Positions 15,522-61,300 of a stretch of 64,000 bases of DNA are shown here, piece after piece. The stretch's first letter is position 1, and each line of letters opens with the position of its first letter. A program made the translations under genes and the position numbers. Below the pieces are notes generated by a model. The model did no database searches. It had not been told where the DNA came from and saw only the letters and a program-made list of their open reading frames with translations. This DNA is from Oscillospiraceae bacterium (GTDB taxonomy: Bacteria > Bacillota > Clostridia > UMGS1810), in contig SVJM01000001.1 of the NCBI GenBank assembly GCA_015068975.1, positions 62,001 to 126,000 of the forward strand, read 5' to 3'.

Positions 15522-15563
15522 AAAACTGCACCGGAAGGGAAGATCCCTTTCGGTGCAGTTTTT
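15522..15563. terminator. Bidirectional terminator between convergent genes
   Basis: 12-bp stem AAAACTGCACCG/CGGTGCAGTTTT (15522-15533 with 15551-15562), serving the rpiR-type gene and the opposing small membrane gene. Confidence 0.85.
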
Positions 15564-22334: not shown

Positions 22335-22404
22335 AGATAAGAGAGGAGTAGAAGTTTATTTTTACATCCTCTTTTTTGATGACAACACGATTTTTTGTTT
22401 TATT

Positions 22405-22451
22405 CCTCAAAACTTACCAAAAGGGACGGTCCCTTTTGGTAAGTTTTGAGG
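22405..22451. terminator. Perfect 23-bp inverted repeat with GGGACGGTCCC core
   Basis: Arms 22405-22427 and 22429-22451 pair perfectly around a single central base. It shares the GGGAC-S-GTCCC core with elements at 14526, 48016 and 51948, though the arm sequence differs and no T-run follows directly. Confidence 0.75.
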
Positions 22452-22479
22452 GCGATGGTACGGATTTTTTATCTTCATC

Positions 22480-28483: not shown

Positions 28484-28512
28484 TTGAAAAAAACCAACTT
28501 ATCATTTATAAT
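28484..28512 (+). promoter_or_regulatory. Predicted sigma-A promoter of the surface-protein cluster
   Basis: TTGAAA and a perfect TATAAT with a 17-nt spacer. The start near 28519 leaves a leader of about 115 nt. Confidence 0.75.
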
Positions 28513-28634: not shown

Positions 28635-29831
28635 ATGAAAAAATTCCTTACAAGAGTTATTGCTCTTGCACTCGTTTCTCTTATGTTCGCTATGCCATGT
28701 ATGGCAGCAACTTACTCAAGCGTAACATATGAAGGCGACACAATCACAGTATCACTTGATGGTTACAATCAGGGTGATGAAAGTACAGTTATCATTGTTA
28801 AGAGTGGCGTTGATCTTGCTACAGTTTCTGACAGTGAAATTGTAAATATCGACCAGAAACCGGTTGTATCTGCAGATGGCAAGGTGTCATTTGCTCTTCC
28901 TGTTGACGAAAGAGCTCAGGAAATCGGTGTAAAAGCTGTTGATATCTACATTGGTGGATCATCAATGGATGATGCAGAAAAGTACGCAGAGACTATTACA
29001 CTTAACGAACAGGCTGATATTAAATATGTTTATACAGCATCCTTCAAGACAAGCCTTGATGGTAAGTTTGGATCAGCTGCAGAAGCTAAGGCTGATGTTC
29101 AGGTTATGAAAACTAAATATGTAGATGGTGTAGAAACAAGTACAGAAGATGTTACATCATCATGTAGAATTGAAGAAAACAATGGTGTATTTGATGTATA
29201 CCTTGATAGTAACAAGGTTACTTCAATCGCATTTACAGTTGCAAATATCACTTATAAATATGCTGCATCATTCAAGAGCGGTAAGACAACATTTACCACA
29301 GATGCAGAAGCTAAGGCTGATGTAATTGTTAAGAAGATTAAGTATGAAAACGGCGTGGCTACAGGTGAAGAACAGGATGTAACAACAATGGCTACAATCG
29401 TAGTTAACAACGGTGTTATCTCTGTTGCTATTCTCGAAGCAGACTTCAGTGCAACTCTTAACTACTCACTTGCAACTCTCGGTATCTCAGGTATTATCAA
29501 CTGGACAGATATTGAAGCTCCGCTTGAAAATGCCCTTGTTTACCTCTATGATGGCGAAACACTTAAGGGTGTAACACTTACAGATGCTAATGGTTCATAC
29601 TCATTCAGCGTAGGTGCAGGTACATATCAGTTGTACGTATCGGGTTCATATGTTGAACCATCTGAAAACTATGTATATCAGATGGCTCCAGCTTATGCAG
29701 AAGTTACTGTAACAGACAGAGTTGCAACTCAGTCATTTGACCTTGCACTTCCGTTGGACGGCGATCTTACCGGAGATGGAAAGGTTGACAAGAGTGACGT
29801 TTCACTCTTGAAAGCAATGTTCACAAACTAA
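28635..29831 (+). CDS. Secreted repeat protein with half dockerin-like motif
   Basis: Family not recognised as a whole. The 398-residue protein has a signal peptide (about 1-24), a beta-rich domain (about 25-125), two copies of a roughly 80-residue repeat (about 131-205 and 206-280, with YKYAASFKSGKTTF...AEAKADV...NNGVISV), a carboxypeptidase-regulatory or CNA-B-like beta sandwich (about 285-345; LENALVYLYDGE...GSYSFSVGAG), and a C-terminal GDLTGDGKVDKSDVSLL, one calcium loop plus helix in the style of a type I dockerin. Only one half is present. Start 28635 is chosen for its signal peptide and for AAGGAG and GAAAGG upstream. The same repeat occurs in the next gene, so the two probably act together outside the cell. 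Confidence 0.75.
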   Translation: MKKFLTRVIALALVSLMFAMPCMAATYSSVTYEGDTITVSLDGYNQGDESTVIIVKSGVDLATVSDSEIVNIDQKPVVSADGKVSFALPVDERAQEIGVKAVDIYIGGSSMDDAEKYAETITLNEQADIKYVYTASFKTSLDGKFGSAAEAKADVQVMKTKYVDGVETSTEDVTSSCRIEENNGVFDVYLDSNKVTSIAFTVANITYKYAASFKSGKTTFTTDAEAKADVIVKKIKYENGVATGEEQDVTTMATIVVNNGVISVAILEADFSATLNYSLATLGISGIINWTDIEAPLENALVYLYDGETLKGVTLTDANGSYSFSVGAGTYQLYVSGSYVEPSENYVYQMAPAYAEVTVTDRVATQSFDLALPLDGDLTGDGKVDKSDVSLLKAMFTN

Positions 29832-29845
29832 TTGATATGCAGATA

Positions 29846-29881
29846 ACTTTAAGAGGTTTCATTTGTGAAGCCTCTTAAAGT
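29846..29881 (+). terminator. Intercistronic hairpin
   Basis: 15-bp stem with one wobble (29846-29860 with 29867-29881). A T-run is lacking and a ribosome site follows within 10 nt, so it may be an attenuator or mRNA-stabilising stem. Confidence 0.55.
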
Positions 29882-29902
29882 GACTTTATAAGGAGGATGA
29901 AT

Positions 29903-32900
29903 ATGAAATCATTTAACAAGATTTTAAGCCTTGTGCTTACCCTCACAATGTTGGTTTCTATGTGTGCAATGCCGGTGGCATTTGCTGCAGGTTTATATCC
30001 TGTTGGCGACACTTCAGATTATGAAGTCGCAGCTACATTTGTAGCAGCTGACGGGACAACAGAAGTTACTGAGGTTGAAGCAGGAGCTACAGTATATCTG
30101 AGACTTGACCTTAAAAAGTTCTCAACACTTAACTCAGGCGTTGTAACTGTTGACCTTGAGGGTGCAACCTTTGTGGCAGAGACAAATAAGCTGACAGGAA
30201 GTATTTTTACAAAGGATACAGACGAAATGCTAAAGTTTGTAGCAGGTTCAACTTCTGCAGACTATGGTATTTTAACAGATGTAGCTAACCTTACAAGTAA
30301 AAATTATAAGGTTAATTATTATGCATTTGCAGAGCCTACAGATATGTATCTTGCGTTTTATGAAGTAAAGGTTGATGAAGATGCTACAGCAGTTACTGCA
30401 ACAGTATCTCATGAATTGTATGTTGGTGACTCCAACAGCAAACTTAAGAACAGCCCCGTAATTGGTGATTTAGTTATTACAAACGACTCTCTCACAGTAA
30501 CAGGCGGAGAACCACCGGTTGTTGATCCTGTAATCACATACAGCTACTCTGCAAAATGGAACGATGTTGCAACAGCAGCAAAAGTATTCCCGGAAGGAAC
30601 AGACGAAGAAGCTGTTAAAGATGCAGTTGTAGTAACAAAAGTAACAACAACAGACGGCGTTGCTGATGGCGGTGTTGTTATGACAGAAGGCTATACAGTA
30701 GCACTTAGCGATGGTAATGTAACAGTTACAATCGATGCAGATCCAACTGCAGCAGTTGCAGGTAGCCTTACATATACTATCGAAGTGCATGTTCCTGCAA
30801 TCACATATAGCTACGAAGCTAAATGGTCTGATGTAGCTACATCTGAAAATGTATTCCCTGAGGGAACAGAAGAAGATGCTATCAAGGAAATGGTAGTTGT
30901 TAGAAGAACAGCATTTGCTGATGGCGTTGAAACCAATATAGATACAATGGAAGATGGCTTCACAGTAGTGCTTAGCGATGGTAACGTAACAGTTACAATC
31001 GATGCAGATCCAGCTGCAACAGTTACAGGTAACCTTACATATATTATCGAAGAGCATGTTCCTGTAGTATCTTACAGATATGAAGCTACATGGAAGGCAG
31101 AAAATGCATTTGACTATGGCACATCCGAAGCTGCTATCCTTTCTAAGGTAGAAGTTAAGAAATATACAACAACAGATGGTGTTGAAGATGCTGGTGAAGT
31201 AATCACTGAAGGCATCAGCGCAACAGCTGCAGACGGTGTTGTTACAATCACAATCGATGGTGTTGATCCAATCATACTCAACTATACAATTATCGACAAG
31301 GTTGAATATAAGAACCCAACAGCAGTCGCTGCAACAGAATATGATTATGTTGATTTCGTAGACAACATGGCAGGCATTGAAGAAGGCGTTGTTGTTGCAG
31401 TAGAAAAATGGGTTAACGATGCTAAGGATTCTGACGTTGATCTTGTAAACGGCGAAGACTTCAGAGCAACAGCTACACTCAAAGATAACGAAAATGCTGG
31501 TTCAATCTCAATTGAATTCCTTGGTGAATATGCTGACCTTTCTGTAGAAGATATCGAATTTACACTTACAAATGCACCTATCACATTTGAAAATGTTGAG
31601 GCTTGTCTTACACAGACCCAGTTCCACGAAAGTGTTGATGAAGCTACTGTAAAAGCAGCACTTAAGATAACAGCTGACAAAGTTGAAGGAAGACTTCCTG
31701 CAGTAGTTGGTATTTCATTGCCGGAAGTATGCTACGAGGTTACAGTTGATCTTGTAGCAAAGAAGGTTACTGTAGCATATGTTGGTACAGTTGATATCGA
31801 ATCTTCAGAGCTTGAATTCGAACTTATTCCTGCAGTTATCACATACAAGAATGCTGCAGCTTCACTTACAAACGATGTATTCGGTACTGTTCCTGAAGCA
31901 GCAGATATCATCGCAAGACTTGAAGTTAAGGCTGAAATGTTCAAAGATAATGTATATGAAGATGTAGTAGAAATCACATCCGAAAACTACGATGTAGAAA
32001 TCGGTGATGGTGTTGCTACAATCACATTCAAGAATGCATATGCAGAGCTTGAAGCAGTTGAAGTTGAATTCTCAGTACAAGAAGTTACATATGGCGATCC
32101 TGTTATCGTTGTAGACGGAACAATCACCGGTAACGGTAAATCAAATGAAGAAATCATCGCAGAAGCATGGACACTTATCACAGCAACAAGAGAAGTTCTT
32201 ACAAATGGTGTTGTGACAGGTACTGAAGATCTTGACAAAGAAGCTCTTGAAGAACTTGGTGTTGCAGCATCTTTTGAAGAAGGTAAGCTTGTATTTACAT
32301 TTGACGGTGCTGTGATTGCAGAAGTTTCTGTATCTTCAGGTATGCTCCAGTTTGCTTCAGCAAACCCAAGAACAGCACATGATGAATTCATTAAGTTTGT
32401 AGGTGCTACACTTAAGGATATCTTTGATAACATCAAAGTTAAGAAAGACATATTCCAGATCATCCAGCTCAATGCAGATGAATGGGAAACAATCACAGAA
32501 GCAATTACAAACGGAGATGCAACAGTTACTGTTGATAGTGTAACATATGACAGCACAAATCTTAATGCTGCAGATTCTGTTGTAATTGGCGATGCAGAAA
32601 GCAAAGTGTTTGAAATTGCATACAAGGATGTTGTAGATACAGTTGAAGTAGACCTCTTGACTGTTGCAACAGACTATGCTAACGAAGATAACGAAGCTCC
32701 TGTAGTATCTATCACTATAGATGCAACAGAAGTACAGATCGGCACAGACGTAACTGCTACAGTTTACGTAAAAGATCTTGTTGGTAATATTGAGACAGGT
32801 ATGATATCTATCCTTTATTCAAATGCTGAAGTTGATGAAGCTGATATCGTAGCTGCAGACGGATTTGAAATTCTTTCGAAGACTATCATGGGCAACGAAA

Positions 32901-33871
32901 TCCAGGTTGTATTTACTATCAATGATGCAGCATATGATGCTGGCGCAGGAATCTTTACAGTTAAATTTGATACAACAAATTCTGATGTAAATGCTAAGCT
33001 TGGTCTTGCAATCAATGATTACGAACTCACAAGAATTGTTGACATGGGCGATTACAACGAATACAAGCCTGTAAATGCTACAATCGGTGACAATGTAGAA
33101 GTTACAGTTACAGCAGGTGATGTACTCGGATACAACTACGAAGTATCTTATGCATCAGGCAAGACTGAATTCTACACAGATGCTGATGCAGTAGCAGATG
33201 TTAAGGTTCTTGCTTACACAACAACAAATGGTGTTGTAGATCCTGGTCAGACACCTGTAGATGTTACAGCTGATTGTGACATCAATGCAAACAACGGTGT
33301 TATCACTGTTGATAAAGCAGGTGTAAGAATTACAACTCTTACATACTCAATCTACGAAGCATCATTTGAACAGTTTGTTGCTATTGAAACAATCGGTTCA
33401 GTAGAAGATGCTAAGTTTGTTGACAATACATCAGTTAAGCTTAATGAGGTTGATGTAGCTGATGCTACAATCGCTCTTGATGGCAGAAGCATCAAAGTAG
33501 CTGTTGCAGGTATCAAGGCTGAAGGAACATATGTAATAGAAGTTGCAGTTCCTGGTTATACAAAGGCTAAATTCGAAGTTGTTGTTTCTAAGAAACCAAC
33601 ACTTGATGGCTATAATGCAGCAGTTGTTACAGGATCTAAGATCTACGCTGGTGACATTAACGGTGACAACAGAATTGATGGTGTTGACTTCTCAGATGTT
33701 GCAGGTAAGTACTCCTTTACTAAGGAAGCCAAGTATGACCTCTATACAGGCAATGATTCAGATGTAATTGACAACCTTGACGTAACAACAATGGCTCACT
33801 ACTTCATCACACTTGCTCGTGGTCAGGTTTCACCAGATGGTACAGTAATCATACCATACAGCGGAAACTAA
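29903..33871 (+). CDS. Giant secreted scaffold-like protein, cohesin-like and dockerin-like
   Basis: No known protein recognised. The 1322-residue product has a signal peptide (about 1-28), a cohesin-like beta sandwich (about 32-205, VEAGATVYLRLDLKKFS...), three copies of the about 85-residue repeat seen in the previous gene (about 211, 298 and 386), further related beta modules (from about 470, 558, 643 and 726), a second cohesin-like domain (about 928-1070; QIGTDVTATVYVKDL...ISILYSNAEV...GIFTVKFDTTN), another repeat (about 1075-1155) and a C-terminal dockerin-like pair (about 1248-1310: GDINGDNRIDGVDFSDV, then a weaker second loop). Start 29903 lies 6 nt after AAGGAGG; ATG 29897 abuts it. 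Very acidic, Thr/Val-rich, cysteine-poor. The domain calls are by pattern, not search. Confidence 0.7.
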   Translation: MKSFNKILSLVLTLTMLVSMCAMPVAFAAGLYPVGDTSDYEVAATFVAADGTTEVTEVEAGATVYLRLDLKKFSTLNSGVVTVDLEGATFVAETNKLTGSIFTKDTDEMLKFVAGSTSADYGILTDVANLTSKNYKVNYYAFAEPTDMYLAFYEVKVDEDATAVTATVSHELYVGDSNSKLKNSPVIGDLVITNDSLTVTGGEPPVVDPVITYSYSAKWNDVATAAKVFPEGTDEEAVKDAVVVTKVTTTDGVADGGVVMTEGYTVALSDGNVTVTIDADPTAAVAGSLTYTIEVHVPAITYSYEAKWSDVATSENVFPEGTEEDAIKEMVVVRRTAFADGVETNIDTMEDGFTVVLSDGNVTVTIDADPAATVTGNLTYIIEEHVPVVSYRYEATWKAENAFDYGTSEAAILSKVEVKKYTTTDGVEDAGEVITEGISATAADGVVTITIDGVDPIILNYTIIDKVEYKNPTAVAATEYDYVDFVDNMAGIEEGVVVAVEKWVNDAKDSDVDLVNGEDFRATATLKDNENAGSISIEFLGEYADLSVEDIEFTLTNAPITFENVEACLTQTQFHESVDEATVKAALKITADKVEGRLPAVVGISLPEVCYEVTVDLVAKKVTVAYVGTVDIESSELEFELIPAVITYKNAAASLTNDVFGTVPEAADIIARLEVKAEMFKDNVYEDVVEITSENYDVEIGDGVATITFKNAYAELEAVEVEFSVQEVTYGDPVIVVDGTITGNGKSNEEIIAEAWTLITATREVLTNGVVTGTEDLDKEALEELGVAASFEEGKLVFTFDGAVIAEVSVSSGMLQFASANPRTAHDEFIKFVGATLKDIFDNIKVKKDIFQIIQLNADEWETITEAITNGDATVTVDSVTYDSTNLNAADSVVIGDAESKVFEIAYKDVVDTVEVDLLTVATDYANEDNEAPVVSITIDATEVQIGTDVTATVYVKDLVGNIETGMISILYSNAEVDEADIVAADGFEILSKTIMGNEIQVVFTINDAAYDAGAGIFTVKFDTTNSDVNAKLGLAINDYELTRIVDMGDYNEYKPVNATIGDNVEVTVTAGDVLGYNYEVSYASGKTEFYTDADAVADVKVLAYTTTNGVVDPGQTPVDVTADCDINANNGVITVDKAGVRITTLTYSIYEASFEQFVAIETIGSVEDAKFVDNTSVKLNEVDVADATIALDGRSIKVAVAGIKAEGTYVIEVAVPGYTKAKFEVVVSKKPTLDGYNAAVVTGSKIYAGDINGDNRIDGVDFSDVAGKYSFTKEAKYDLYTGNDSDVIDNLDVTTMAHYFITLARGQVSPDGTVIIPYSGN

Positions 33872-33908
33872 TCATTAAATAATTTAAAGTAATTTAATTA
33901 CTATATAG

Positions 33909-33941
33909 CCCAAAAAGAGCAGTTTATCTGCTCTTTTTGGG
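33909..33941 (+). terminator. Terminator after the giant scaffold-like gene
   Basis: Perfect 14-bp stem (33909-33922 with 33928-33941); bidirectional in base content. Confidence 0.8.
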
Positions 33942-34001
33942 TAAATAGTAGTTTTGTAGTAAATACATAAATGTTTTAACGCTTAACGGAGGGATTTACA
34001 T

Positions 34002-35291
34002 ATGAAAACTAAAAGAATATCAGCTCTTATTTTATCCTTCATCTTAATACTATCCTCATTATCTATTACTGCATCTGCAGGCATATATGATTCATATGAA
34101 GATGTTACCGGTTCTCTTTACAGAACCTCAAATGATACACTTTATCCGGGAAACACACTGGAAGTTATTCTCAAGGTGGATTTCGATACAAATAATATCG
34201 ACAAAATAGTTGCATTTGACCTTATTGGTACCTATTCAAATTTGACATTAACAGGGATAGAATTTCTTGGAGATTCAGCATCTGCTGACATTCCAAATCC
34301 TGATGATATAGACCTTATAGCAAATCTTGGTGACGGATCACCCGAGCTTAGTGAACCTGTAAAAACCACTAAGTCTACAATAATTGACACAAGCAAAGAT
34401 GGCAAAATAAGCTATACAGCAGTACTGCTTCGTGATTCTGCATATATTACAGAGGATCCGGAGGAAGGCTTTGCAAAGCTTGTAAAATTTAAGTTCAAAG
34501 CAAAAAGTTCTGGCACTGCAAAAGTAAACCTTACTGATTGCTACTTAAGAAAAGATTATACATATGTTGATGATCACAGAGATCTTAACGTTAATCAGCT
34601 TACATTTAATGTTCAGTCAACCGGCGGCGGTGGCGGTGGATCAGGTTCATCTGGTGGCCCAAGTCTTCCACCGACGATTATAATCAAACCTGATACTCCT
34701 GACAAGCCTGATGGCAAGAGAAAGTATGCTGATATTTACAATGCCGACTGGCATTATGATATGATTGATATACTCTATGATCAGGGATTTATCAATGGTA
34801 CAGGTGTAGAAGATGATGGTGCAATAGTCATCACACCTGATGCAAATATCACCCGTCAGGAAGCAGCTAAGCTCAGTGTCAATGCTCTCGGACTCCAGTT
34901 GAAAAATGGCTCCTTCGGATTTGCCGATGAAACACATGCTGCAGATTGGGCTAAGCCATATATTTATACAGCAGCTACTCATCCGAAAAAGCTTATAAAA
35001 GGATATCCTGAAGATAACACATTCAGACCTTTCAACAATATCACCAGAGCAGAGTTCGCTACAATAATTATGAATACATTTGACTTCGAAATGCTCACAT
35101 CTTACGATTTGTCTATATTTAAAGATAACGAAGATATAACATGGGCGGCTCCGTATGTGGCATCTCTTGTTAAGGCAGAAGTCATCAAGGGTTATGAAGA
35201 TGGTTTCTTCTATCCTGACAAGTACATTACAAGAGCGGAAGCCTTTGTGATGATGTACAGAGCTTTGGATGCATTTAATATGCTTAAATAA
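34002..35291 (+). CDS. SLH-anchored surface protein with cohesin-like domain
   Basis: 429 residues: signal peptide (about 1-26, cleavage after ASA), a cohesin-like beta sandwich (about 30-205; LYPGNTLEVILKVDFD...VAFDLIG, later FAKLVKFKFKAKSSGTA), a Gly/Ser linker (about 207-220), and three S-layer homology domains (about 240-429; e.g. ITRQEAAKLSVNAL, ITRAEFATIIMNTF, ITRAEAFVMMYRAL). SLH domains bind pyruvylated wall polymers, so the N-terminal domain is displayed on the cell surface. Layout is that of cellulosome anchor proteins such as OlpA. GGAGGG precedes the start. The next gene is a paralogue. Confidence 0.82.
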   Translation: MKTKRISALILSFILILSSLSITASAGIYDSYEDVTGSLYRTSNDTLYPGNTLEVILKVDFDTNNIDKIVAFDLIGTYSNLTLTGIEFLGDSASADIPNPDDIDLIANLGDGSPELSEPVKTTKSTIIDTSKDGKISYTAVLLRDSAYITEDPEEGFAKLVKFKFKAKSSGTAKVNLTDCYLRKDYTYVDDHRDLNVNQLTFNVQSTGGGGGGSGSSGGPSLPPTIIIKPDTPDKPDGKRKYADIYNADWHYDMIDILYDQGFINGTGVEDDGAIVITPDANITRQEAAKLSVNALGLQLKNGSFGFADETHAADWAKPYIYTAATHPKKLIKGYPEDNTFRPFNNITRAEFATIIMNTFDFEMLTSYDLSIFKDNEDITWAAPYVASLVKAEVIKGYEDGFFYPDKYITRAEAFVMMYRALDAFNMLK

Positions 35292-35298
35292 ACCTAAA

Positions 35299-35332
35299 GG
35301 GCGGATGCATCAGCATCCGCCTTATATTTTTA
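35299..35332 (+). terminator. Terminator between the two SLH genes
   Basis: 9-bp GC-rich stem GGCGGATGC/GCATCCGCC (35300-35308 with 35313-35321), loop ATCA, then a T-rich tail. Confidence 0.75.
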
Positions 35333-35355
35333 ATCATAAGTTAAGGAGAACATAT

Positions 35356-36603
35356 ATGAAAAAAATATCTTTTATGCTGATACTGTGCATAATAATCACA
35401 TCATTTTCTGTTACATCCTTTGCAGGTATATATGACAGCTATGAAGGAATTCAGGGAAGTATATCTACCACTTCTCTTACAAATATTTATCCCGGCGATG
35501 ATATTACTATCACTATTTCTGTGGATAAGGAGGATTTCACTCAGCTGGTTTCCTTTGACATTGTGGGATCACTTACAAATCTTACTGTGGATTCTATAAG
35601 ATTTTTACCATCAAACAGACCTGCACAGTTGTTGACCACCAGTACAACAGAAGACAAGATTGACTTCTCCGGATTTTATCTTCCTACAGAAACTGCTATT
35701 TCCCCAACAGGAAACAGCTTCAGACTAGCAGAAATAAAGTTAACTGCCGATGCTGCGGGAAGTGCTTCTATAAAGATAACTGACGGTTTTGCTCAGTTTG
35801 GACACAATGACGAAAGTCTAAAAAGAAAAGTAGAGTTTGATGATGTTACCTTTACTGTCAAGAGAGAATCCTCCGGTGGCGGTGGTTCAGGCTCAGGCGG
35901 TGGTTCAGGCACAGGCGGCGGCGGATCAAGCACCATTACACCACCCCCTGTTGTAGATGATCCTGCAGACAAAGAGAAAAATGATCCTTCGAATACTGAT
36001 AATAACACAGACCACAAAAAAGATGAAGAACTTCAGCAATGGCAGAATCCATTTACAGATGTTAAGGATACTGACTGGTACTATGCCTCTGTTGAATATG
36101 CAAACAAAAACAATCTTATGAGAGGCGTTACAGAAAACACCTTCTCACCAAATACATCAGTTACCAGAGCAATGTTTGTAACAGTGCTTTATCGTATGGA
36201 AGGGGAGCCTGATGCAGGGGAAAGTACATTTAATGATGTGCCTAAGGGCGCATATTATGAAAAGGCTGTAGCATGGGCAAGTGCCAATAAGATTGTAAAT
36301 GGTGTGACAGAGGACTCATTTGCACCGGATAATAATATCACACGTGAACAGATGGCTGCGATTGTATACAGATATGCTTCATTCAAAAATGCAGATTTAT
36401 CTAAAGGAGAAAACACAAATATCCTTTCATACACCGATTTCTCTGATATATCCGAATATGCAATTCCTGCATTTCAGTATATGGCAGGGGAAGGCATTAT
36501 GAAGGGTGAAACAGAATCTACTCTCAATCCAAAAAATCTCTCTACAAGAGCGCAGGCGGCAACTGTGTTTATGAGAGTTATGGAAAAACTCGCCAAAAAG
36601 TAA
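35356..36603 (+). CDS. SLH-anchored surface protein, paralogue of the previous one
   Basis: 415 residues: signal peptide (about 1-24), mature start AGIYDSYEGIQGS almost matching the neighbour's AGIYDSYEDVTGS, cohesin-like domain (about 27-185; IYPGDDITITISVD...VSFDIVG, FRLAEIKLTADAAGSAS), a long Gly/Ser then Pro/Asp/Asn linker (about 187-240) and three SLH domains (about 240-415). It is a tandem duplicate of the 34002 gene that has diverged in linker and binding face. AAGGAG lies 7 nt before the chosen ATG; longer in-frame starts overlap the upstream terminator. If the cohesin-like domains are real, two anchors of differing preference would be displayed. Confidence 0.82.
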   Translation: MKKISFMLILCIIITSFSVTSFAGIYDSYEGIQGSISTTSLTNIYPGDDITITISVDKEDFTQLVSFDIVGSLTNLTVDSIRFLPSNRPAQLLTTSTTEDKIDFSGFYLPTETAISPTGNSFRLAEIKLTADAAGSASIKITDGFAQFGHNDESLKRKVEFDDVTFTVKRESSGGGGSGSGGGSGTGGGGSSTITPPPVVDDPADKEKNDPSNTDNNTDHKKDEELQQWQNPFTDVKDTDWYYASVEYANKNNLMRGVTENTFSPNTSVTRAMFVTVLYRMEGEPDAGESTFNDVPKGAYYEKAVAWASANKIVNGVTEDSFAPDNNITREQMAAIVYRYASFKNADLSKGENTNILSYTDFSDISEYAIPAFQYMAGEGIMKGETESTLNPKNLSTRAQAATVFMRVMEKLAKK

Positions 36604-36612
36604 AATGTGATT

Positions 36613-36641
36613 AAAGGAACTGCCTATGCAGTTCCTTTTTT
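36613..36641 (+). terminator. Terminator after the second SLH gene
   Basis: 11-bp stem AAAGGAACTGC/GCAGTTCCTTT (36613-36623 with 36628-36638) and T-run. Confidence 0.88.
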
Positions 36642-36813
36642 GGTTTTAACCTTTTATTGACGGGGACTTGAATGTTAGAAAATATAGAGTGTACAGCGAT
36701 GCCTTATACTTTTGTTGTATATTACATTTTCGTGAAAAATTAAAAATCCTATTGAAAATCTTACATCTTTATGTAAAAATATAATTAAGAAAAAAGAGAA
36801 AGAGGTGTTACAT

Positions 36814-39315
36814 ATGAAACTAAAAAGATTTGTATCGGTTTTTCTCATAATATGCCTTGTGTTATCTATCCTTCCGGTATTTGCCGATGAAGAAATCACT
36901 GTAATGGTAAATGGGGAAAAGGTGGTTTTTGACCAGGAGCCTGTTGTAGAAAACGGCAGAACCCTTGTGCCTGTAAGAGCTATATTTGAAAAGCTGGGGG
37001 CAAGAGTTTCATATGAACCTGAGCGACAAAAGGTCTATGCTGAGATGGGCACAAGATATGTGGCTTTTCTCATTGGTGCAGATACTATTTATACAAATGA
37101 TGGCGGTACAAAAACAGATGCCCCGGCAAGGATTATAAATGACAGGACCTTTGTGCCTGTAAGAGCAGTATCAGAAGGATTTGGTGCAAAGGTTTCATGG
37201 GATCAGGCTACCAAAACCGTTACTATAAACAGTAAAGGAACAAACACTGTAAAATATGTATACAAGAGCTACAGTTCATATTCTCAGGATAATACAATAG
37301 TCCTTAACGGACTGTGTTCATATCCTGAGATTAAGGGAGATACAGATATAGTCAAAGCCCTTAACAAAGGGTTTTCAGACGGGACACTTGATTATATCAA
37401 ATATTTAAGTGAGGAGCCTACACAGGCAGCATCTTCTATGTATACAGAACACAAAAAATCCGGAAACAGCAGTTTGTTTTCTCCTCTTGATTATAAGAGA
37501 ACATTTGATGTAAGCTACAACAGAGGAAATGTTATTTCCTTTGTATTTCATACAATGTCCGGAAGAAATGGCGAGTTTTCAGAAGGTGCAATTAAAACAG
37601 GACTTACATATGATATTTCTACAGGTCAGTCTGTAACAAAAGAAGCTGTATTTAATCTTTCTAAGCCGGAACTGGAAAATCTTATTTTGTCAACCTTTAA
37701 TAATAGCATTGCATCAAATCCGGATCTTTACTCTCACGAAGCTTCAGAATATGTAAATAAAAATATAAGCAATGTGGGATTTTATCTTGATGACTATGGT
37801 GCTGTATTTTTCTTCCCAGCAGGCACAATACTCAATGACAAAGCTGCAATACCGCAGATAAGAATTGATTATGAAAGCAATAAGGATTTGTTTAATATAA
37901 CTGATTTTGCTAAAAAAAGCGACAGCCCGAAAGAAGAAATCAATACAGAAGCTAAGGAGGAGCCTAAAGAAGAAGTAAAGGAAGAAGCTAAAGAGGAAAT
38001 AAAAGAAGAGCCAAAGACAGAAATTGAAAAAGAAACGGAAAAACCGAAAACAGAAGAACCCAAAGAACAACCAAAGGAAGAGACATCTGATAATCAGACA
38101 AAAGAGGAAATTAAGGTAAGAGTTCCTCAGGAGGTTATTTCAGCTATCAAGGATATTTATGCCAAGGTAACAGAAGAGAAACAGCCGGAATTTACAGAGC
38201 CTGTAAATGACAAAAAATATACTGTATCCTTTGCGGACAATCTGTATTCAAAGATGCCCACAGACAAAAACTATATGATTTCGCCATTAAGTATCAAAAT
38301 GGCACTTGGACTTGCTGCAACGGGAGCAAAAGGGGATACACTGAACGAAATCAAGGATGTAATGCAGATCAGTACCATAGAAGAATTCAACCAAAGGGCA
38401 AAAGAGCTTATAGATATCTACAAAAATACAAAAGAGCTTAAGCTCAATGTGGCAAATTCTTTGTGGATAAATACCGACAGTATGGATGGTATGACCTTTA
38501 AGCCTGATTATCAGGAAGCAGTCACAGCCTTCTATGATGCAAAGGTGGGCAATGTGGATAATTCCAACGCAGAAGAAATAATCAATGGTTGGATAAAAGA
38601 GAATACTAAGGGCAAAATTCCATCTATTGTGGAAGATGCGGACTTTGTTACTGCTCTTATCAATGCAGTGTATTTTAATGGACGATGGGAGCATGAATTT
38701 AACAAAAAGGCGACTCAGCCGGGAGAGTTTGCTGATAGAAACGGCAAATTCAACACAATAGACTTTATGCGTCAGATAGGCAAATTTAATTACTTTTCAA
38801 ACGATAAGGCTACAGTAGTTGAGCTTCCTTACACAAGATACTTTGACAACAATGGAGAATCTTTCTTGTCAAAGGATAAGGCGTTCAGTATGTATGTGGT
38901 GATGCCGAAGTTTGACACAAGGATAGAAAATATTGAGAAATATCTTAGTGATATTTCTATGAAAAATGCTTATCTTGATATAAGTCTTCCTAAGTTTAAG
39001 ACAGAATTCAGTATGAATCTTAATGATGTACTTAAGCTTATGGGAATGAATACAGCATTTACAAATGGTGCGGATTTCTCGAGAATGTCAGATGTGTCTT
39101 TGATGATAAGTGATGTAATTCACAAAACTTACATTGATGTAAATGAAGAAGGCACAGAGGCTGCTGCAGCGACTGCAGTTATTATGAAAGATACTTCATC
39201 ACTTATCACAAATGAGCCTGTTGTTGTAAAGATTGACAAGCCTTTTGTATATGTGATAAAGGATAATGTAAATGATGAGATACTCTTTATAGGTGAGTAT
39301 GCATATGTAGAATAA
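36814..39315 (+). CDS. Secreted serpin with copper-amine-oxidase-like N-terminus
   Basis: Serpins are suicide inhibitors of proteases. The 833-residue protein has a signal peptide (about 1-24), a copper-amine-oxidase N-terminal-like domain (about 27-145; two NGRTLVPVRAIFE / NDRTFVPVRAVSE repeats), a DUF3298/RsiV-like domain (about 150-365), a Glu/Lys/Pro-rich linker (about 368-440) and a full serpin (about 470-833; MISPLSIKMALGLAATGAKG). The hinge EEGTEAAAATAV at 778-789 keeps the small residues needed for loop insertion, so it should be inhibitory; the scissile bond is probably near T-S in KDTSSL. In clostridial cellulosomes serpins protect the complex from proteases. Start 36814 follows AGAGGTG. 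Confidence 0.9.
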   Translation: MKLKRFVSVFLIICLVLSILPVFADEEITVMVNGEKVVFDQEPVVENGRTLVPVRAIFEKLGARVSYEPERQKVYAEMGTRYVAFLIGADTIYTNDGGTKTDAPARIINDRTFVPVRAVSEGFGAKVSWDQATKTVTINSKGTNTVKYVYKSYSSYSQDNTIVLNGLCSYPEIKGDTDIVKALNKGFSDGTLDYIKYLSEEPTQAASSMYTEHKKSGNSSLFSPLDYKRTFDVSYNRGNVISFVFHTMSGRNGEFSEGAIKTGLTYDISTGQSVTKEAVFNLSKPELENLILSTFNNSIASNPDLYSHEASEYVNKNISNVGFYLDDYGAVFFFPAGTILNDKAAIPQIRIDYESNKDLFNITDFAKKSDSPKEEINTEAKEEPKEEVKEEAKEEIKEEPKTEIEKETEKPKTEEPKEQPKEETSDNQTKEEIKVRVPQEVISAIKDIYAKVTEEKQPEFTEPVNDKKYTVSFADNLYSKMPTDKNYMISPLSIKMALGLAATGAKGDTLNEIKDVMQISTIEEFNQRAKELIDIYKNTKELKLNVANSLWINTDSMDGMTFKPDYQEAVTAFYDAKVGNVDNSNAEEIINGWIKENTKGKIPSIVEDADFVTALINAVYFNGRWEHEFNKKATQPGEFADRNGKFNTIDFMRQIGKFNYFSNDKATVVELPYTRYFDNNGESFLSKDKAFSMYVVMPKFDTRIENIEKYLSDISMKNAYLDISLPKFKTEFSMNLNDVLKLMGMNTAFTNGADFSRMSDVSLMISDVIHKTYIDVNEEGTEAAAATAVIMKDTSSLITNEPVVVKIDKPFVYVIKDNVNDEILFIGEYAYVE

Positions 39316-43475: not shown

Positions 43476-43515
43476 CAAATTTATTTTGCCGTATCAGGCA
43501 AAGGAGGAAATGCAG

Positions 43516-46500
43516 ATGAAAAAATATCTTTGTTTGCTTATGTCGTTACTCATATTTGTATCGGCATTGTATAATGCAGGAATAAGTGTGTTGGCATCAG
43601 ATGAAACCTTCACCCTTGCATTGGTTAAAACTGAGGGAATCACTCTGACATCCACTACGGCAGGTTCAGGTACTGCTACGGGAAACGGACCTTTTAAATC
43701 ATCCGGAAAATATTCCCTTTCTCTTACTACCATGAACTCATGGGCTACTGCCACACCTGATTCACTTAAGGAGAAATACACTCAGCCTAAGGTGTCTTTT
43801 TCCACACCGAATGTGGCGGATATCAAAGATAATTACAACGGCTTTGACAATCCGGCTATCGGTTCAAAGGTGCTGAAGGTAAGTCAGGATACGGGTTGTG
43901 CTATTTTCAGAGTGTATAATATGCTTAACACCACTGCGGTAGCAAAGGGTGACCTTATTAAAGTAAGTTATGATGTATATGCAGCCAATCCCAAAGAAGG
44001 TCAGAAAGGCGAAATCGACAATACTATTGACAAGATAAAAATGAGAGTGGGTGCAAGAACCAAGCAGACCGGCTCCGAAAAGGATATGCAGTATTCATCC
44101 AATTTTGAAATAAAGACAAATCAGTGGTCAAAGGTTGAGTATGTATTTACAGTATCATCCACAGATTCAAAAAGTGCAAAGGAAATGCACGGCGTAAGAA
44201 TAGACGTTACTGCTTCGGGAGATATCTCAAAGGAAGCAGCGTTTACAAGTACTTTTGCATCAGAGATGTTTTTTGACAATATCCGTATAGAAAAAATCGC
44301 ATCTGCTGCACAGACTGTTTCAGTAACAACAACCGCATCAAACGGCGGTACTGTCACCGGTGCGAAATCGGTTACTCCGGGTACATCTGTTACCGTGGAA
44401 GCAAACGCCAAACCGGGATATTCATTTGACGGTTGGTACTGTGGCGGCATCTGGTTGTCAGACAGTGCTTCATATTCTTTCTATCCTACAAGAAATACTG
44501 TACTGGAGGCGAAGTTCGTGGAAGAAACGCCTGTTGTATCTTCAGTCATAGTCACAGAAGAGGAAACATATGCAAATTCTGTATATACTCAGGATAAAGG
44601 TACATTTACAGACAAAACCGTAACGGGTAATTACGGCTTTGTGAGAAGTAAGGGTTTTGTATCATCTCAAACAGGCTCTGATTCAATTGTATATACATTA
44701 TCAGACAGTGCAGTATCAAAAATGAATACCGACAGTCTTATTATGACAAATGTTGCGGTAAAATCCAATGAAGGAACAGGCAAAATCAATATTAAACTCA
44801 TAGGAGGTAATTCAACAGTTCTTTCCAATATGGAATATGCAGTTGCTCCTCAGTGGACAAATATAAGAGTACCCCTTGTGATATCGGCGGAAAAACTTTC
44901 TGGGATAGAAATCACTACGGGAAATATAGCGCAGAATATAGAAATTGCAAATATTACCGTAGAGGATTATACCGAAGCAACCGACAAACTTGATTTCATC
45001 AGAAGATCGGGAATGTATCTTCTCGAAAAGTTTGAAGAAACAGAACTTCAGGATCCGGGCGCAAATCCTGTAATGGGCAAGGCTATAGACCTTGTTGCAA
45101 AGGGAAATTATCTCTATGTAATCGGCGGTTCGGGAAATGTGGGATATCTTATGATTGGTGATATCTCCGATAAGACAAAGATAACAAAGGTATCTACTGT
45201 TGAAAATCTCGGTCAGGTAAGACAGGTGGATATCACAACAGACGGAAAATATGTACTTGTAACAGGCAGACATAACGGTGTTACTATTATTGATGTAAAT
45301 GATGTAAAAAATCCATTTATCAAAGGGTATTATGACAGTGTGGAGTTTGCCACAGGTATATGCGTAAGCGGAAACTATATGTTTGTTGCAAACAGACAGT
45401 ACGGTGTGGAAATTGTTGATATCACAGACATTGACAATCCGAAACAACTTTCAATTGTAAGAAGCGGCGAAGCCCAGTCATGTAAGGTAATAGACAACTA
45501 TCTTTATGCAGGTATCTGGGGCGAATGTGCAGTCAAGATTTATGACATCCGTCAACCGTCTGAACCAAAGTATGTAGGTAAAGCAAACCTTAACGGACGT
45601 GGAGACGGATTCAGTGTGGCAAAGAGCAAAGACGGCACAAAGACATATCTCTATGCGGCTACAGGTCAGCATATAAAGGGTGCATCTTCAGACGGACTCT
45701 ATACCGATCCGAGATACGGTATGGGTAACGGTATGGATGTATATGATATTACTGATCCTGCAAATCCGAAATGGCTTTCAACCGTAAAGATAGACGGAAA
45801 GTATTACTATACTGCAGTTGACTACTGGGAAACTGCATTCTCCAGAGGAGAAGACGGTAAGGACTATGCATATCTTATAAGTATTTTTAACGGTGTATAC
45901 ATCTATGATGTGACAGAACCTTCAATGCCAATAAGACTTGCACATCTTTCAGTTCCCGTGTATAGTTCATCACCGAATTTCTCATCACTTGCGGCAAATG
46001 ACAAAAATGTCTTCCAGTTTGACCAGAGAACTGCTTTGCAGTACAGCCCCGTATCTTCTATAACTGCAAGAGACGGTGTGCTTTATCTTGCAGGTACATA
46101 CACAGATGTACATGCTTACAGAAATGAAGACATTATATACGAAGAATACGACAGAGGAGATACCTCATCTGCCATAGAAAAGGATAACGGTACATTCTAC
46201 AAACTTCCTGATGATAACTTCGGTCTTGATAACTTTAAGTATTACAGACCTGACGGTCAGGTGTATTATGCTCTGACTTGCGGTGATTATATCTTTGCCG
46301 CATGCGGAAATGACGGTATTCACATACTTGACAAAGACCTTAAACTTATTAAGAAATATGATACAGAAAGAGCAGTATCCCATCTTCAGGTGATAGGCGA
46401 TACACTCTATTCTGCAGAAAATCAGGCAGGACTCAAGTTCTATAAGATAGAAGGTGCTACCCTCACACCTGTTGGAAAAACCTACTCATCAAAGGATAAT

Positions 46501-47949
46501 AATCCGGTAAAGATGATACAGATTTCTTCCAACAAAAAATGGGCGGTAATCCAGAACGGAAGACTTCAGTTCGAGATTGTAAATATTTCCGATATCAATT
46601 CACCCACAAAGTATGGTACATACAGTTCCTCAGGACATCTCTATTACAGAAACCTTATGAACGGCTTTGTGGACAACAGATATATGATGTGCTATTCAAA
46701 TCCGGGTACAAACTGTCACAGTATCATTGATTTCGGTGAAAACTGCGAAAGTGATGCACCTGTTGTAAAGAGATTCGGTTCTACAAATCTTGGACTTAAC
46801 GGCGGTCACGCGGCTTACAGAAACAAGGCTATAGCAGTTAAGAACGGAAGTATCGTAGTATATAATCCGGCAGATTATATGGCAGAATCAGTAACCGCAC
46901 TTCCTACATCGGGAACTGTTACAAAATCAGGCGTTATCGGTAAGCCTTCAATCCACAGAAATGTACTTATGCTTTCCGAAAGAATGGAAGGTGACGTTCA
47001 CTTTATAGACATATCAAATATTGAAAAACCGCAAGTGCTTAAATCCTTCAAGATAGCGGGAAATCCTGATATGATGACTGCTACGGATACATATGTGCTT
47101 TTGCCTGCAGGTTATCAGGGACTTATAAAATTTGATACGGATATGTTTGAAGAAAAGCCAACCATATCGGTTAAGACTTCTGTATCTGCGTCAGGATACA
47201 AAGGAACAGCCACATTTACGGATATTCCTGATTTTGAAGAGGGATTCGGTGCAATTGCCTTTGTATGTGCATATGATGACAACGGAAACCTCAAGGGAAT
47301 GAGCAAAGTAAGTGAAGTGCAGATGTATGCAGCAGACGGTTCAAAGGAAGTATCCGCAGAACTTGGATTTGTTGACGGTGCCAAAGAATATGATTTCTTC
47401 CTCTGGAACAATATGAATGATATTAAGCCTTATACTAAAAAACAGGTGATATTCAAGGAATATACACTTCCATCAGGAGGAGAAATCCTTATCAATAATG
47501 ACGACTTTATAAATGGCACCTGGAATGTACCAGAGGCAAATGGTACCAAGAGTGTATCCGATGATACGGTAATGCTCAGTGTAACCACACTTCCGACTAA
47601 GGATAATGGTGTGAATATGGAGTTTAAGAATGACCTTTCGGGTAAATTCAGTGAAGGAGATATCTGCCTTATGACATTTAAGGCGCAGGTTACATCAGGC
47701 ACGGGATATATCAAGGGTGTTGTTCAGGCTGGTTCCACCGACGGATGGGCAAAATCTCTGTTTGCAGAAACTGAAGTGGCTGAAGGCTACTGGATGGATT
47801 GCTATCTGCCATTTGTGGCAAAATCAAATATCATTCAGGCAGCATTCAGATTCGGCGGAAAGATTCAGAATGTACAGATAAAGGATTTCAGACTTATAAA
47901 CTATGGTAAAACTCTGAAAATAGAAGATTTGCCTTCAACAATCAAATAA
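43516..47949 (+). CDS. Large secreted LVIVD-repeat (beta-propeller) protein
   Basis: 1477 residues, extracellular. Order: signal peptide (about 1-32), a carbohydrate-binding-like jelly roll (about 90-265), an InlB-B/bacterial repeat (about 268-340; GYSFDGWYCGG), another jelly-roll-like part (about 350-490), a long region of LVIVD repeats (about 530-1215; e.g. NGVTIIDVNDVKNP, YGVEIVDITDIDNP, MDVYDITDPANP) expected to form beta-propellers, an Ig-like part, and a C-terminal module (about 1320-1477) shared with both GH10 enzymes and ending LPSTIK. No catalytic motif recognised; a binding or display role, or an unknown lyase or hydrolase, is possible. Start 43516 is 8 nt after AAGGAGG. Divergent from AraC regulator A. 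Confidence 0.78.
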   Translation: MKKYLCLLMSLLIFVSALYNAGISVLASDETFTLALVKTEGITLTSTTAGSGTATGNGPFKSSGKYSLSLTTMNSWATATPDSLKEKYTQPKVSFSTPNVADIKDNYNGFDNPAIGSKVLKVSQDTGCAIFRVYNMLNTTAVAKGDLIKVSYDVYAANPKEGQKGEIDNTIDKIKMRVGARTKQTGSEKDMQYSSNFEIKTNQWSKVEYVFTVSSTDSKSAKEMHGVRIDVTASGDISKEAAFTSTFASEMFFDNIRIEKIASAAQTVSVTTTASNGGTVTGAKSVTPGTSVTVEANAKPGYSFDGWYCGGIWLSDSASYSFYPTRNTVLEAKFVEETPVVSSVIVTEEETYANSVYTQDKGTFTDKTVTGNYGFVRSKGFVSSQTGSDSIVYTLSDSAVSKMNTDSLIMTNVAVKSNEGTGKINIKLIGGNSTVLSNMEYAVAPQWTNIRVPLVISAEKLSGIEITTGNIAQNIEIANITVEDYTEATDKLDFIRRSGMYLLEKFEETELQDPGANPVMGKAIDLVAKGNYLYVIGGSGNVGYLMIGDISDKTKITKVSTVENLGQVRQVDITTDGKYVLVTGRHNGVTIIDVNDVKNPFIKGYYDSVEFATGICVSGNYMFVANRQYGVEIVDITDIDNPKQLSIVRSGEAQSCKVIDNYLYAGIWGECAVKIYDIRQPSEPKYVGKANLNGRGDGFSVAKSKDGTKTYLYAATGQHIKGASSDGLYTDPRYGMGNGMDVYDITDPANPKWLSTVKIDGKYYYTAVDYWETAFSRGEDGKDYAYLISIFNGVYIYDVTEPSMPIRLAHLSVPVYSSSPNFSSLAANDKNVFQFDQRTALQYSPVSSITARDGVLYLAGTYTDVHAYRNEDIIYEEYDRGDTSSAIEKDNGTFYKLPDDNFGLDNFKYYRPDGQVYYALTCGDYIFAACGNDGIHILDKDLKLIKKYDTERAVSHLQVIGDTLYSAENQAGLKFYKIEGATLTPVGKTYSSKDNNPVKMIQISSNKKWAVIQNGRLQFEIVNISDINSPTKYGTYSSSGHLYYRNLMNGFVDNRYMMCYSNPGTNCHSIIDFGENCESDAPVVKRFGSTNLGLNGGHAAYRNKAIAVKNGSIVVYNPADYMAESVTALPTSGTVTKSGVIGKPSIHRNVLMLSERMEGDVHFIDISNIEKPQVLKSFKIAGNPDMMTATDTYVLLPAGYQGLIKFDTDMFEEKPTISVKTSVSASGYKGTATFTDIPDFEEGFGAIAFVCAYDDNGNLKGMSKVSEVQMYAADGSKEVSAELGFVDGAKEYDFFLWNNMNDIKPYTKKQVIFKEYTLPSGGEILINNDDFINGTWNVPEANGTKSVSDDTVMLSVTTLPTKDNGVNMEFKNDLSGKFSEGDICLMTFKAQVTSGTGYIKGVVQAGSTDGWAKSLFAETEVAEGYWMDCYLPFVAKSNIIQAAFRFGGKIQNVQIKDFRLINYGKTLKIEDLPSTIK

Positions 47950-48015: not shown

Positions 48016-48048
48016 TTACCCCATTAGGGACCGTCCCTAATGGGGTAA
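48016..48048. terminator. Bidirectional terminator with GGGACCGTCCC core
   Basis: Perfect 16-bp stem around one central base, between the LVIVD gene and the converging AraC gene. Its stem begins TTACCCC as at 14526 and 51948. Confidence 0.85.
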
Positions 48049-48912: not shown

Positions 48913-48925
48913 TATATTTTTGCCG

Positions 48926-48982
48926 ATTTGTGCTAATTGTGTTGAATGGTCCATTGGCAATGCCAATGAAAGACGATATACT
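48926..48982 (+). promoter_or_regulatory. Candidate AraC-activated promoter of the first GH10 gene
   Basis: TGTGCTA upstream, then TCCA directly joined to the -35 (TTGGCA, 48954-48959), 17-nt spacer, TATACT (48977-48982). A perfect dyad CATTGGCA-A-TGCCAATG (48952-48968) overlaps the -35. The TCCATTG word recurs at the same place before 52946 and 58396. Confidence 0.55.
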
Positions 48983-49009
48983 GAAAATAAAGAAAGGAAT
49001 GATGAAAAT

Positions 49010-51947: not shown

Positions 51948-51986
51948 AAATTACCCCATCAGGGACGGTCCCTGATGGGGTAATTT
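51948..51986. terminator. Bidirectional terminator with GGGACGGTCCC core
   Basis: Perfect 19-bp stem around one central base, between the first GH10 gene and converging AraC regulator C. Confidence 0.87.
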
Positions 51987-58395: not shown

Positions 58396-61300
58396 ATGAA
58401 AAAAATCCTATCATTATTTATTGTAATTACAATGATTTCGGCTTTGTTTACTGTACCCGCACTTGCAGATGACGGTATCAAGGTTGTAATCAACGGTGTA
58501 GAACAACACTATGATGTGATGCCGGTTATTATCAACGGCAGAACACTTGTACCTATGAGGGGTATTTATGAGGCTTTGGGTGCAGAAATCACCTGGATTG
58601 ATGCAACAAAGACAGTTGTAGGTGCAAGGGACAACACACATATTAAGCTTCGTATCAATTCCGACTCTTACTATGTAGATGGTGTTGAACAGGAAAAGAA
58701 GCTTGATGTTCCTGCACAGATTATCAATTCCCGTACAATGGTCCCCGTAAGATTTATTGCAGAATCATTCGGTGAAACTGTAAACTGGAACGGGGATACA
58801 AAAACTGTTGAAATCACTTCTGATTATCTTAAGGAAGTTGCAGTATCGGATAAGCTTGCGCATCTTGATTCAAGATTTCACAGACCAATCCCGAGAGAAT
58901 TTACCAAATCTTCAGAACTTGGAGACTGGATTTATTATGATGAAGAAAAAGAGGAGGCAATAAGATTCAACCCTACTCTTTACCCTCAGTCAAAGGAGAT
59001 AATGAGTCAGGAAGAACTCCTTACAAATGGTTCTCTTGATAACGTAAATGAAAAATCTGACAAAACCAAATACGGATATTATGAAGCGGTGGATATAAAG
59101 GAGGAAGGCATATCATCATCAAAGGCACTTAAGGTAGTTACATCTGAAACACCCCCTGCAAAGAATCTCCATGTGCTTTTGTTTGGTACAATGCTTAAAG
59201 GCAGATTTGAAGAAGGAGACAATGTGCTTCTTACATTTAAAGTAAGACTTGCCGACGGCGGTGAGAATATAGGCAGAAGTGAAGAAAAGAAAGGTCAGAT
59301 ATGGGCTTCGCTTCAGGAAACTGTGAAATATGGTAAAACTATATGGAAATCAATCACTGTAAAGAAGGATTGGCAGACAATATACATCCCTGCGGTGATG
59401 AAGGAGGGCTATGATGATTTTGCAATCCGTTTCGGTTATTGCTCAATGCCACAGACAGTAGAAATAGCAGATTTCAGTATGCTTAATTTCGGAAAAGAAC
59501 TTCATCAGGACCATCCGTTGCCGGAATATCTTGGCGATGCTACAAATGAATTTGAGCCTGATGCATCCTGGAGAAAAGATGCAGAAAAGAGAATAGAACA
59601 AATCAGAAAAGGTGATTTCATAGTCAAAGTAACTGATGCTTCGGGAAATCCCGTTCCAAATGCAACCGTTACATTTGATATGTACGAATCAGAACTTCCT
59701 TTCGGTTCTGTATACCAGATTGGTCTGGCAAAAAAAGACGAATACAAAGAAGCATTTTCAAAATATTTCAATGGTACAGTTATGGAATCATGTATGAAAT
59801 GGGGTACCTTTGAAATCGACAACAACGATAAAGCAAGAACAAATATGACAGAGGCAAAGAAACTTGGTGCAATATACTTAAGAGACCATGCTATGATATA
59901 TGACAGACATATGCACTCATCCACACAGAGGCTTATCCCTGATGATGTAATGAAGGCTATAAAGGATGGTAATATCCAGTATGTTGACGAAAGAACCAAA
60001 GGCTGGATATACAGAATTTCCGATCTTTTTGCCGGGGAATTTGATGAAATTGATGTGTCAAATGAAATAACCGTCTGCCCAATCGGGGATAAAGTGTACA
60101 AGGATAATGAAGGCAACGATGTAACCGCTATCGGAGGCGGATATTACAAGACACTGGGACCTGAATATTATGACAAGATATATACATGGGTAAAGGAAGT
60201 AAATCCCGATTCGCTTTTGCATGTTACAGAAGGTTACAGTATTGCAGACAACGGGTTAAGATCAAAGATGATATATCCCGTTCTTGATGAACTTATGAAA
60301 AACGAAAACAAATTCAGTGCAGTAGGATTTCAGGGGCATGTAACGGGCAGTTACTTTAATCCAACCAGTCTTGACAGTGCATATACCGATATTTACAACA
60401 GATACAAAGCGGTTACAAGTGTTACGGAGTTTACCACATATTCGGGTGACGAGTATTACGATGCCAACTATACAAGAGATTTTATGATTTCGTCTCTGGC
60501 AAATGAATATTTCAACGGTATGTATCTCTGGGGATTTATGAAATCATCTGCCACAAGCGAGGGTGTAGGTGATAAATGCTTTATGAATTATGACGGAAAG
60601 TTAAGACCTGCAGGCGAAGTGATGACGGATATTATATACAATAAGATGTATACACATAATGTAACTGTTACAACAGATGTAAACGGCGAAGCGGTTATCC
60701 GCGGTTTCTACGGAAACTATGATGTGACAGTGGATGCCAATGGAAAAAACAAAAAACTTATGGCTGCATTCCACAAAGGATACGAAAACCTCCTCGAAGT
60801 AAATATCGACGATACAATGTATGCCGCAATCAAAGGCGAAAATACAGTAAAAGAAGAAGTAGTTGACAATGCAAATACAGAAGTATTCGTACCTGCAGCT
60901 ACCCCCGAAATCAAGGAAGAGCCAAAGAAAGAGGAAACAGAAATCGAAATTCCTGTTGATATAAATCTTCCCTCAGGTGGTGAAGTTATCCTTTCTTCAA
61001 ATGACTTTTCCGATATGATATACACCTTTGCCAAAAAGTACGGTGAATACAATCTTAAGGATGGGGTTCTTTCATTGAATGTTACTTCCGTTTCTCAGAA
61101 AGATCAGAATATAATGCTCTTGTTCAAAAAGAATCTTGAAGACCTTATCAGCGAGGGCGATGTATGTATGCTTACCTTCAAGGTAAAGGTAAATTCCGGT
61201 ACACCTTATCTTAAGTGGCAGGTACAGGCAAATTCGGAGCACAAATATTCAAAGGCATTGTTTGCTCTTGCAGAAGTGAACGGTACCGATTGGGTAACTT

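Follow-up and report, generated by a model that had tools for sequence, protein, structure and literature searches.

What do five adjacent genes for secreted proteins, among them proteins with SLH repeats, dockerin-like tails and a serpin domain, build at the surface of an uncultured, gut-type Oscillospiraceae bacterium? The genes lie in a window of 64,000 nucleotides (assembly GCA_015068975.1, contig SVJM01000001.1, positions 62,001 to 126,000; all window coordinates count from its first letter). A reading made from the letters of this window alone (hereafter the sequence-only reading) had described them as a possible surface scaffold of cohesin-like, dockerin-like, SLH and serpin proteins. 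The five open reading frames (P1 to P5, Table 1) were found where that reading had placed them, all with signal-peptide-like N-termini. Our preferred answer, with a probability of roughly 0.6, is a surface assembly that contains no enzyme and is joined by cohesin-dockerin contacts. The genome comparisons below cover 16 genomes from 8 genera of the order (G000 being the source genome), and scans with the P3/P4-domain and P2-tail models cover 391 genomes of the class.

SLH-anchored proteins with a cohesin fold

P3 and P4 each carry three SLH repeats (Pfam, E-values 4e-25 and 3e-33), consistent with the anchor role that had been assigned to them. The N-domain of P3 was modelled with AlphaFold2; the input alignment comprised four P3/P4 domains, P4 included, taken from two genomes. 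The model has nine strands, with a predicted local distance difference test score (pLDDT) of 71.6 and a predicted template modelling score (pTM) of 0.69. In a Foldseek search of the PDB with this model, a check that the sequence-only reading had proposed, the 34 best matches were all cohesins, with no unrelated family among them, and the first non-cohesin appeared at rank 35. The best match was the Clostridium perfringens cohesin 2vo8 (E 3.4e-6, TM-score 0.75 by target length). As modelled, the P3 N-domain is a nine-stranded jelly roll of the cohesin fold, and P4 follows through the alignment.

Searching the PDB by sequence alone with the P3/P4 domain gave no cohesin, so that the relation is remote; it is visible only through structure and a class-specific profile. 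None of the beta domains had a Pfam match at E<=1, and the P3/P4 N-domain did not reach the cut-off of PF00963. Against a profile of 30 cohesins drawn from the class, hhalign (E-values pairwise, not database ones) gave E 1e-4, a probability of 57.7% and 98 columns for the P3/P4 alignment, with a z-score of 12 against shuffled columns. Residues 921-1075 of P2 gave E 2.4e-4 and 43.8% over 50 columns, far above their own shuffles, and none of eleven control segments, taken from these and related proteins, exceeded 5.2%. The earlier description of the beta domains as cohesin-like was supported for P3 (fold and profile), P4 and the internal P2 domain (profile), but not for the N-terminal domain of P2, which is considered below.

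An SLH-anchoring scaffoldin pairs at least one cohesin with SLH repeats (PMC11557425), and P3 combines three such repeats with the modelled cohesin fold. Adaptor scaffoldins carry a cohesin and a dockerin in one protein; P2, with a cohesin-like domain (by profile match) and a sub-threshold dockerin-like tail, is a probable adaptor.

Dockerin-like tails of P1 and P2

The tail sequences quoted in the sequence-only reading are both present: P1 ends in GDLTGDGKVDKSDVSLLKAMFTN, and GDINGDNRIDGVDF lies close to the C-terminus of P2. The loop of P1, DLTGDGKVDKSD, is of the canonical type D-x-T-x-D-G-x-V-D-x-x-D and, together with one helix, makes a half-dockerin. Type I dockerins have two duplicated calcium-loop/helix segments; P1 has one segment, and in P2 one loop is canonical and the other degenerate. 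Their scores for Dockerin_1 (PF00404), 17.2 bits for P1 and 14.1 bits for P2, are both below the cut-off of 22.9. The earlier description of these tails as dockerin-like was supported: at least one calcium loop is kept in close homologues. The tail of one genome (G005, see below) is degenerate. The single-loop P1 tail also occurs in G001 and G012, and the P2 tail of G001 is in the same state as that of the source genome. The P1 homologues of G009, G010 and G014 end in full two-loop dockerins above the Pfam cut-off. Half-dockerins have been reported to be functional in Ruminococcus flavefaciens (PMC8063739).

Directly before the P2 dockerin, where an X-module would sit, there is a Shr-like_HID-like domain that is below the Pfam cut-off (PF07550, E 0.019) and kept in G001. 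Type II X-dockerin chains were among the weak top matches of a poor model of the P2 tail (5g5d_B, E 0.0095), which is a weak hint only.

Conservation and linkage across the order

The genome of another genus of the same family (G001) has P1-P2-P3-P4 in the same order after dxr-rseP-M14-apbE, with one extra gene between. Identity between the two genomes is 28-37% in the cluster versus 44-62% in the upstream genes, and the tails and SLH repeats are kept. In G012 the order is M14, apbE, amidohydrolase, P1, P2 and an SLH protein, and in G014 it is apbE, amidohydrolase, an SLH protein, a protein with cohesin and Cu_amine_oxidN1 domains, and a dockerin-tailed P1. Across the order, the chromosomal place of the cluster is kept in four genera and the four-gene order in two. 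In G010 a different chromosomal place holds P1 and P2 along with a cohesin-SLH protein. The P1 of G005 adjoins two Cu_amine_oxidN1-type proteins, one or both of which have a Pfam cohesin; that of G009 adjoins a tandem cohesin-like protein.

The N-domain of P1 has a YIDQ-like motif (NIDQ in P1 itself), and a model of this domain found P1-type proteins in all 8 genera; the match in G011 was weak and came without a dockerin. A dockerin-bearing P1 adjoins a protein with cohesin evidence in 6 of 7 cases (G000, G001, G005, G009, G010 and G014). The P3/P4 domain model and the P2 tail model matched the same two class genomes and no others (G000 and G001; 2/391, with a stray match in G118 discounted, see below). 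Cohesins are common in the class (97/245 genomes).

The cluster is not a product of chance, as another genus has the same tails, domain layout and order of genes. It is highly improbable that these are unrelated surface proteins which have only secretion in common and were brought together by chance or co-regulation. The adjoining serpin and LacI-type regulator genes are indeed unrelated, but the order and place conserved between genera, and an Ig-like repeat common to P1 and P2 (two copies in P1), argue against such an origin for the rest.

Two sets of candidate relatives were set aside. In G118 the cohesin-like model gave a weak match (E 5e-4) to a short stretch within a large SLH protein, which we took for noise. 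Relatives from an SLH scan of named genomes had no tails and no significant cohesin-like domain; they match through SLH only and therefore say little about the cluster or its taxon.

Several observations weigh against the proposed assembly. The P3 model was built on 4 sequences, and an insert at residues 65-100 has pLDDT <50. Residues 32-205 of P2 reach only 14% over 26 columns against the cohesin profile (hhalign), and profile comparison did not establish cohesin identity for the N-domains of P2 and P3 in G012. In both G000 and G001 the second calcium loop of P2 is degenerate, as is the P1 tail in G005. The AlphaFold2 model of P2 residues 905-1322 is poor (pLDDT 39.6), with no Foldseek match under 1e-3. 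Finally, the specific P3/P4 and P2-tail models matched in 2 genera only.

An alternative is a set of separate surface proteins, in which the cohesin-fold domains are adhesin or structural modules with other ligands and the tails are non-binding, calcium-stabilised caps. The P3 domain has only 10-18% identity with solved cohesins, its agreement and that of P4 with cohesin profiles is remote, and adhesins also have cohesin-like folds (9ifr and CNA were among the lower Foldseek matches); the degenerate second loop of P2 fits here as well. We nevertheless consider it an unlikely explanation: tails and cohesin anchors stay linked across genera despite heavy sequence change, in the class sample the genomes with the P3/P4 domain are exactly those with the P2 tail, and in G014 a dockerin and its neighbouring cohesin, both above Pfam cut-offs, follow the same apbE gene.

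Search for dockerin-bearing enzymes, and a second cluster

We did not find a dockerin on any enzyme of the source genome, which is 89% complete, either with Pfam or with a family-specific model built from 14 tails of the order (those of P1 and P2 among them). Pfam gave two weak dockerin matches genome-wide, both of them the tails of this cluster, and the 14-tail model gave four, in P1, P2 and two proteins of contig C71. The sequence-only reading had remarked on the lack of enzymes with dockerins and had suggested a structural surface layer rather than a cellulosome, and both statements are supported. Its call for a genome-wide tail search revealed no enzyme, but the cluster is not the sole one of its kind. 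A second one on contig C71 (L006, 7939-17634) combines an SLH protein with two proteins that each have a dockerin-like tail. One, of 1992 aa, has repeats that look like a beta-helix and a cohesin-like domain; the other, of 405 aa, has a cohesin-like part as well. Clusters of similar make-up exist in G009 (L081) and G010 (L084). A TetR-type regulator gene lies near clusters of this type.

Other dockerin proteins above the cut-off that were scanned in the order, three of them in the C-terminal part only, had leucine-rich repeats, beta-helix-like, Big_2 or fn3/SLH domains, were of the P1/P2 type, or had no other domain. One protein of G010 (L063, contig C16) is adaptor-like, with leucine-rich repeats and, in a single non-catalytic chain, cohesin and dockerin matches that both exceed the Pfam cut-offs.

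Cellulosomes are marked by dockerin-bearing enzymes that degrade glycans, and we regard it as quite unlikely that the cluster is a cellulosome or amylosome, small or reduced, with dockerin enzymes that the genome assembly lacks or that have diverged beyond detection. An SLH-cohesin anchor with a cohesin-dockerin adaptor does follow cellulosome logic (PMC11557425), two GH10 proteins and one GH123-type protein are encoded in the window, and at 89% completeness a dockerin enzyme could be missing, which counts against the enzyme-free assembly too. However, neither tail search met an enzyme, the scanned dockerin proteins of the order had no enzyme domain, none of the three window enzymes has a dockerin, and the GH10 proteins have a wall domain of their own instead. 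These two (48920-51937 and 58396-61452) carry Cu_amine_oxidN1 domains at the N-terminus, a domain listed as wall-interacting in cohesin anchors (PMC11557425).

Proposed assembly and known systems

In the enzyme-free assembly that we favour, the SLH repeats of P3 and P4 would anchor these proteins in the wall, each presenting one cohesin outward. The HID-dockerin end of P2 would dock to them, and P2 would itself offer one cohesin or more. P1, with a half-dockerin and no recognised cohesin, may be the outermost subunit, docked on P2 or directly on P3/P4, or may merely accompany P2. Bound in the dockerin loops, calcium would give contacts that are strong yet reversible, and the perfect intergenic hairpins described below may set the relative amounts of the subunits. 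The purpose may be adhesion, a structural coat or glycan binding as with Sas20. A bolder version, which we hold to be doubtful, has P2-type proteins polymerising head to tail into a non-covalent, enzyme-free fibre or coat, with P3/P4 at the base and P1 at the tip, ancestral to the order.

Each part is of a kind known from cellulosomes and amylosomes; what would be new is their vertically inherited combination, with half-dockerins and with no enzyme. The cellulosome of Acetivibrio (Clostridium) thermocellus, with SLH-anchoring scaffoldins, a CipA X-dockerin and type II cohesins, also has an anchor with one cohesin and three SLH repeats. Its long scaffold protein is matched by P2, with the internal cohesin-like domain and the pairing of another domain with a dockerin-like tail at the C-terminus. 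In contrast, the present cluster has no enzyme dockerins, no CBM3 that we could see, few cohesins, domains diverged below Pfam cut-offs, and a non-catalytic P1. In the Ruminococcus bromii amylosome (Sas20, Sca5), non-catalytic dockerin proteins of the surface, of which Sas20 is one, are bound by a cell-anchored cohesin (PMC9112005); that system differs in its dockerin amylases and sortase anchors, whereas here the anchors are SLH repeats and no dockerin enzyme was found. The C. perfringens modules, which include the best structural match of P3, sit within enzymes (GH33 and GH84 by PDB titles), unlike the bearers found here, which are non-catalytic and in two cases SLH-anchored. A survey of non-cellulosomal cohesin and dockerin-like modules was reportedly made by Peer et al. 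in 2009.

Cohesin-dockerin pairs have been studied almost only as docks for enzymes, and an enzyme-free set spread over an order suggests a more general role as surface glue. The cluster also offers compact candidate pairs, half-dockerins included, for protein assembly. Counts based on Pfam miss divergent cohesins, so that such genomes would count as non-cellulosomal and be credited with no more than a few stray dockerins.

Intergenic hairpins and the serpin gene

The hairpins in the gaps of P1-P4 are perfect, with stems of 16, 15 and 11 bp and z-scores of about -5 to -6. In the P1/P2 gap there are counterparts of 15 bp in G001 and 20 bp in G012, with no T-tract in any of the three genera; the P2/P3 gap has a 15-bp counterpart in G001 and none in G012. 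Plain termination fits the hairpins after P3 and P4, the latter likely marking the end of the unit, and was rejected as an account of them all, given the P1/P2 hairpins without T-tract in three genera. Intergenic stem-loops set cellulosome stoichiometry in Clostridium cellulolyticum, where the cip-cel operon, subject to selective RNA processing and stabilisation, likewise has strong perfect hairpins between cohesin-dockerin genes (PMC4423207); by comparison, those described here are predicted from sequence and some resemble ordinary terminators. Eleven hairpins of >=14 bp occur in the window. Dispersed perfect palindromes of like build lie at 15522-15562, 22404-22452, 48016-48048 and 51948-51986, and at 19767-19797 of L006; most have a GGGACSGTCCC core with variable arms and may be a small repeat element. 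The promoter-like site upstream of P1 is the top-ranked plus-strand site of the region, where the overall number of sites is no more than shuffles give.

P5 combines a full serpin (Pfam E 1.5e-90) with Cu_amine_oxidN1 and PdaC-like domains. Cellulosomal serpins carry a dockerin, which P5 lacks. The sequence-only reading had made the serpin a member of the unit, and we abandoned this: the P5 gene stands after a terminator-like hairpin, its product has its own wall domain, and in G010, the one relative where linkage could be judged, serpin and cluster are on different contigs. P5 is probably a neighbour and not a core part of the scaffold. Serpins occur in 8 of the 16 genomes of the order; the contig of G001 ends after P4, so the serpin cannot be judged there. 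A second serpin gene of the source genome (L143, contig C81, 1008-3290) has an N-terminal part like a solute-binding protein, and a relative in G010 has a similar N-terminus.

Table 1. Features of the cluster (window coordinates)
Feature	Position	Strand	Description
Sigma-70-like promoter	28484..28512	+	TTGAAA-17-TATAAT, upstream of P1; 11/12 consensus
P1	28635..29831	+	secreted; N-domain, two Ig-like repeats, CarboxypepD_reg-like domain (Pfam), single-loop dockerin-like tail
P1 half-dockerin	29760..29828	+	one calcium loop and one helix; below Dockerin_1 cut-off
Hairpin, P1/P2 gap	29846..29881	+	16 bp, no T-tract; z about -5
P2	29903..33871	+	1322-aa secreted repeat protein; cohesin-like domain and C-terminal dockerin-like tail
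P2 N-terminal beta domain	29990..30517	+	residues 32-205; hhalign against cohesins
P2 internal cohesin-like domain	32663..33127	+	residues 921-1075; hhalign against 30 class cohesins
P2 Shr-like_HID-like domain	33407..33586	+	PF07550, below cut-off
P2 dockerin-like tail	33647..33808	+	loop 1 canonical, loop 2 degenerate
Hairpin, P2/P3 gap	33908..33942	+	15 bp; z about -6
P3	34002..35291	+	cohesin-SLH anchor; SLH x3 (Pfam), cohesin fold (model)
P3 cohesin domain	34080..34619	+	AlphaFold2 model; Foldseek 2vo8
Hairpin, P3/P4 gap	35298..35323	+	11 bp, terminator-like
P4	35356..36603	+	candidate cohesin-SLH anchor, P3 paralogue; SLH x3 (Pfam), N-domain alignable to P3
P4 cohesin-like domain	35422..35880	+	alignment with P3, profile comparison
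Hairpin after P4	36613..36638	+	terminator-like
P5	36811..39315	+	Cu_amine_oxidN1, PdaC-like and serpin domains

Elsewhere in the window, positions 43486-47949 encode a 1487-aa secreted LVIVD-repeat protein that also has an InlB-B-like repeat; its gene lies downstream of one for an AraC-type regulator on the opposite strand.

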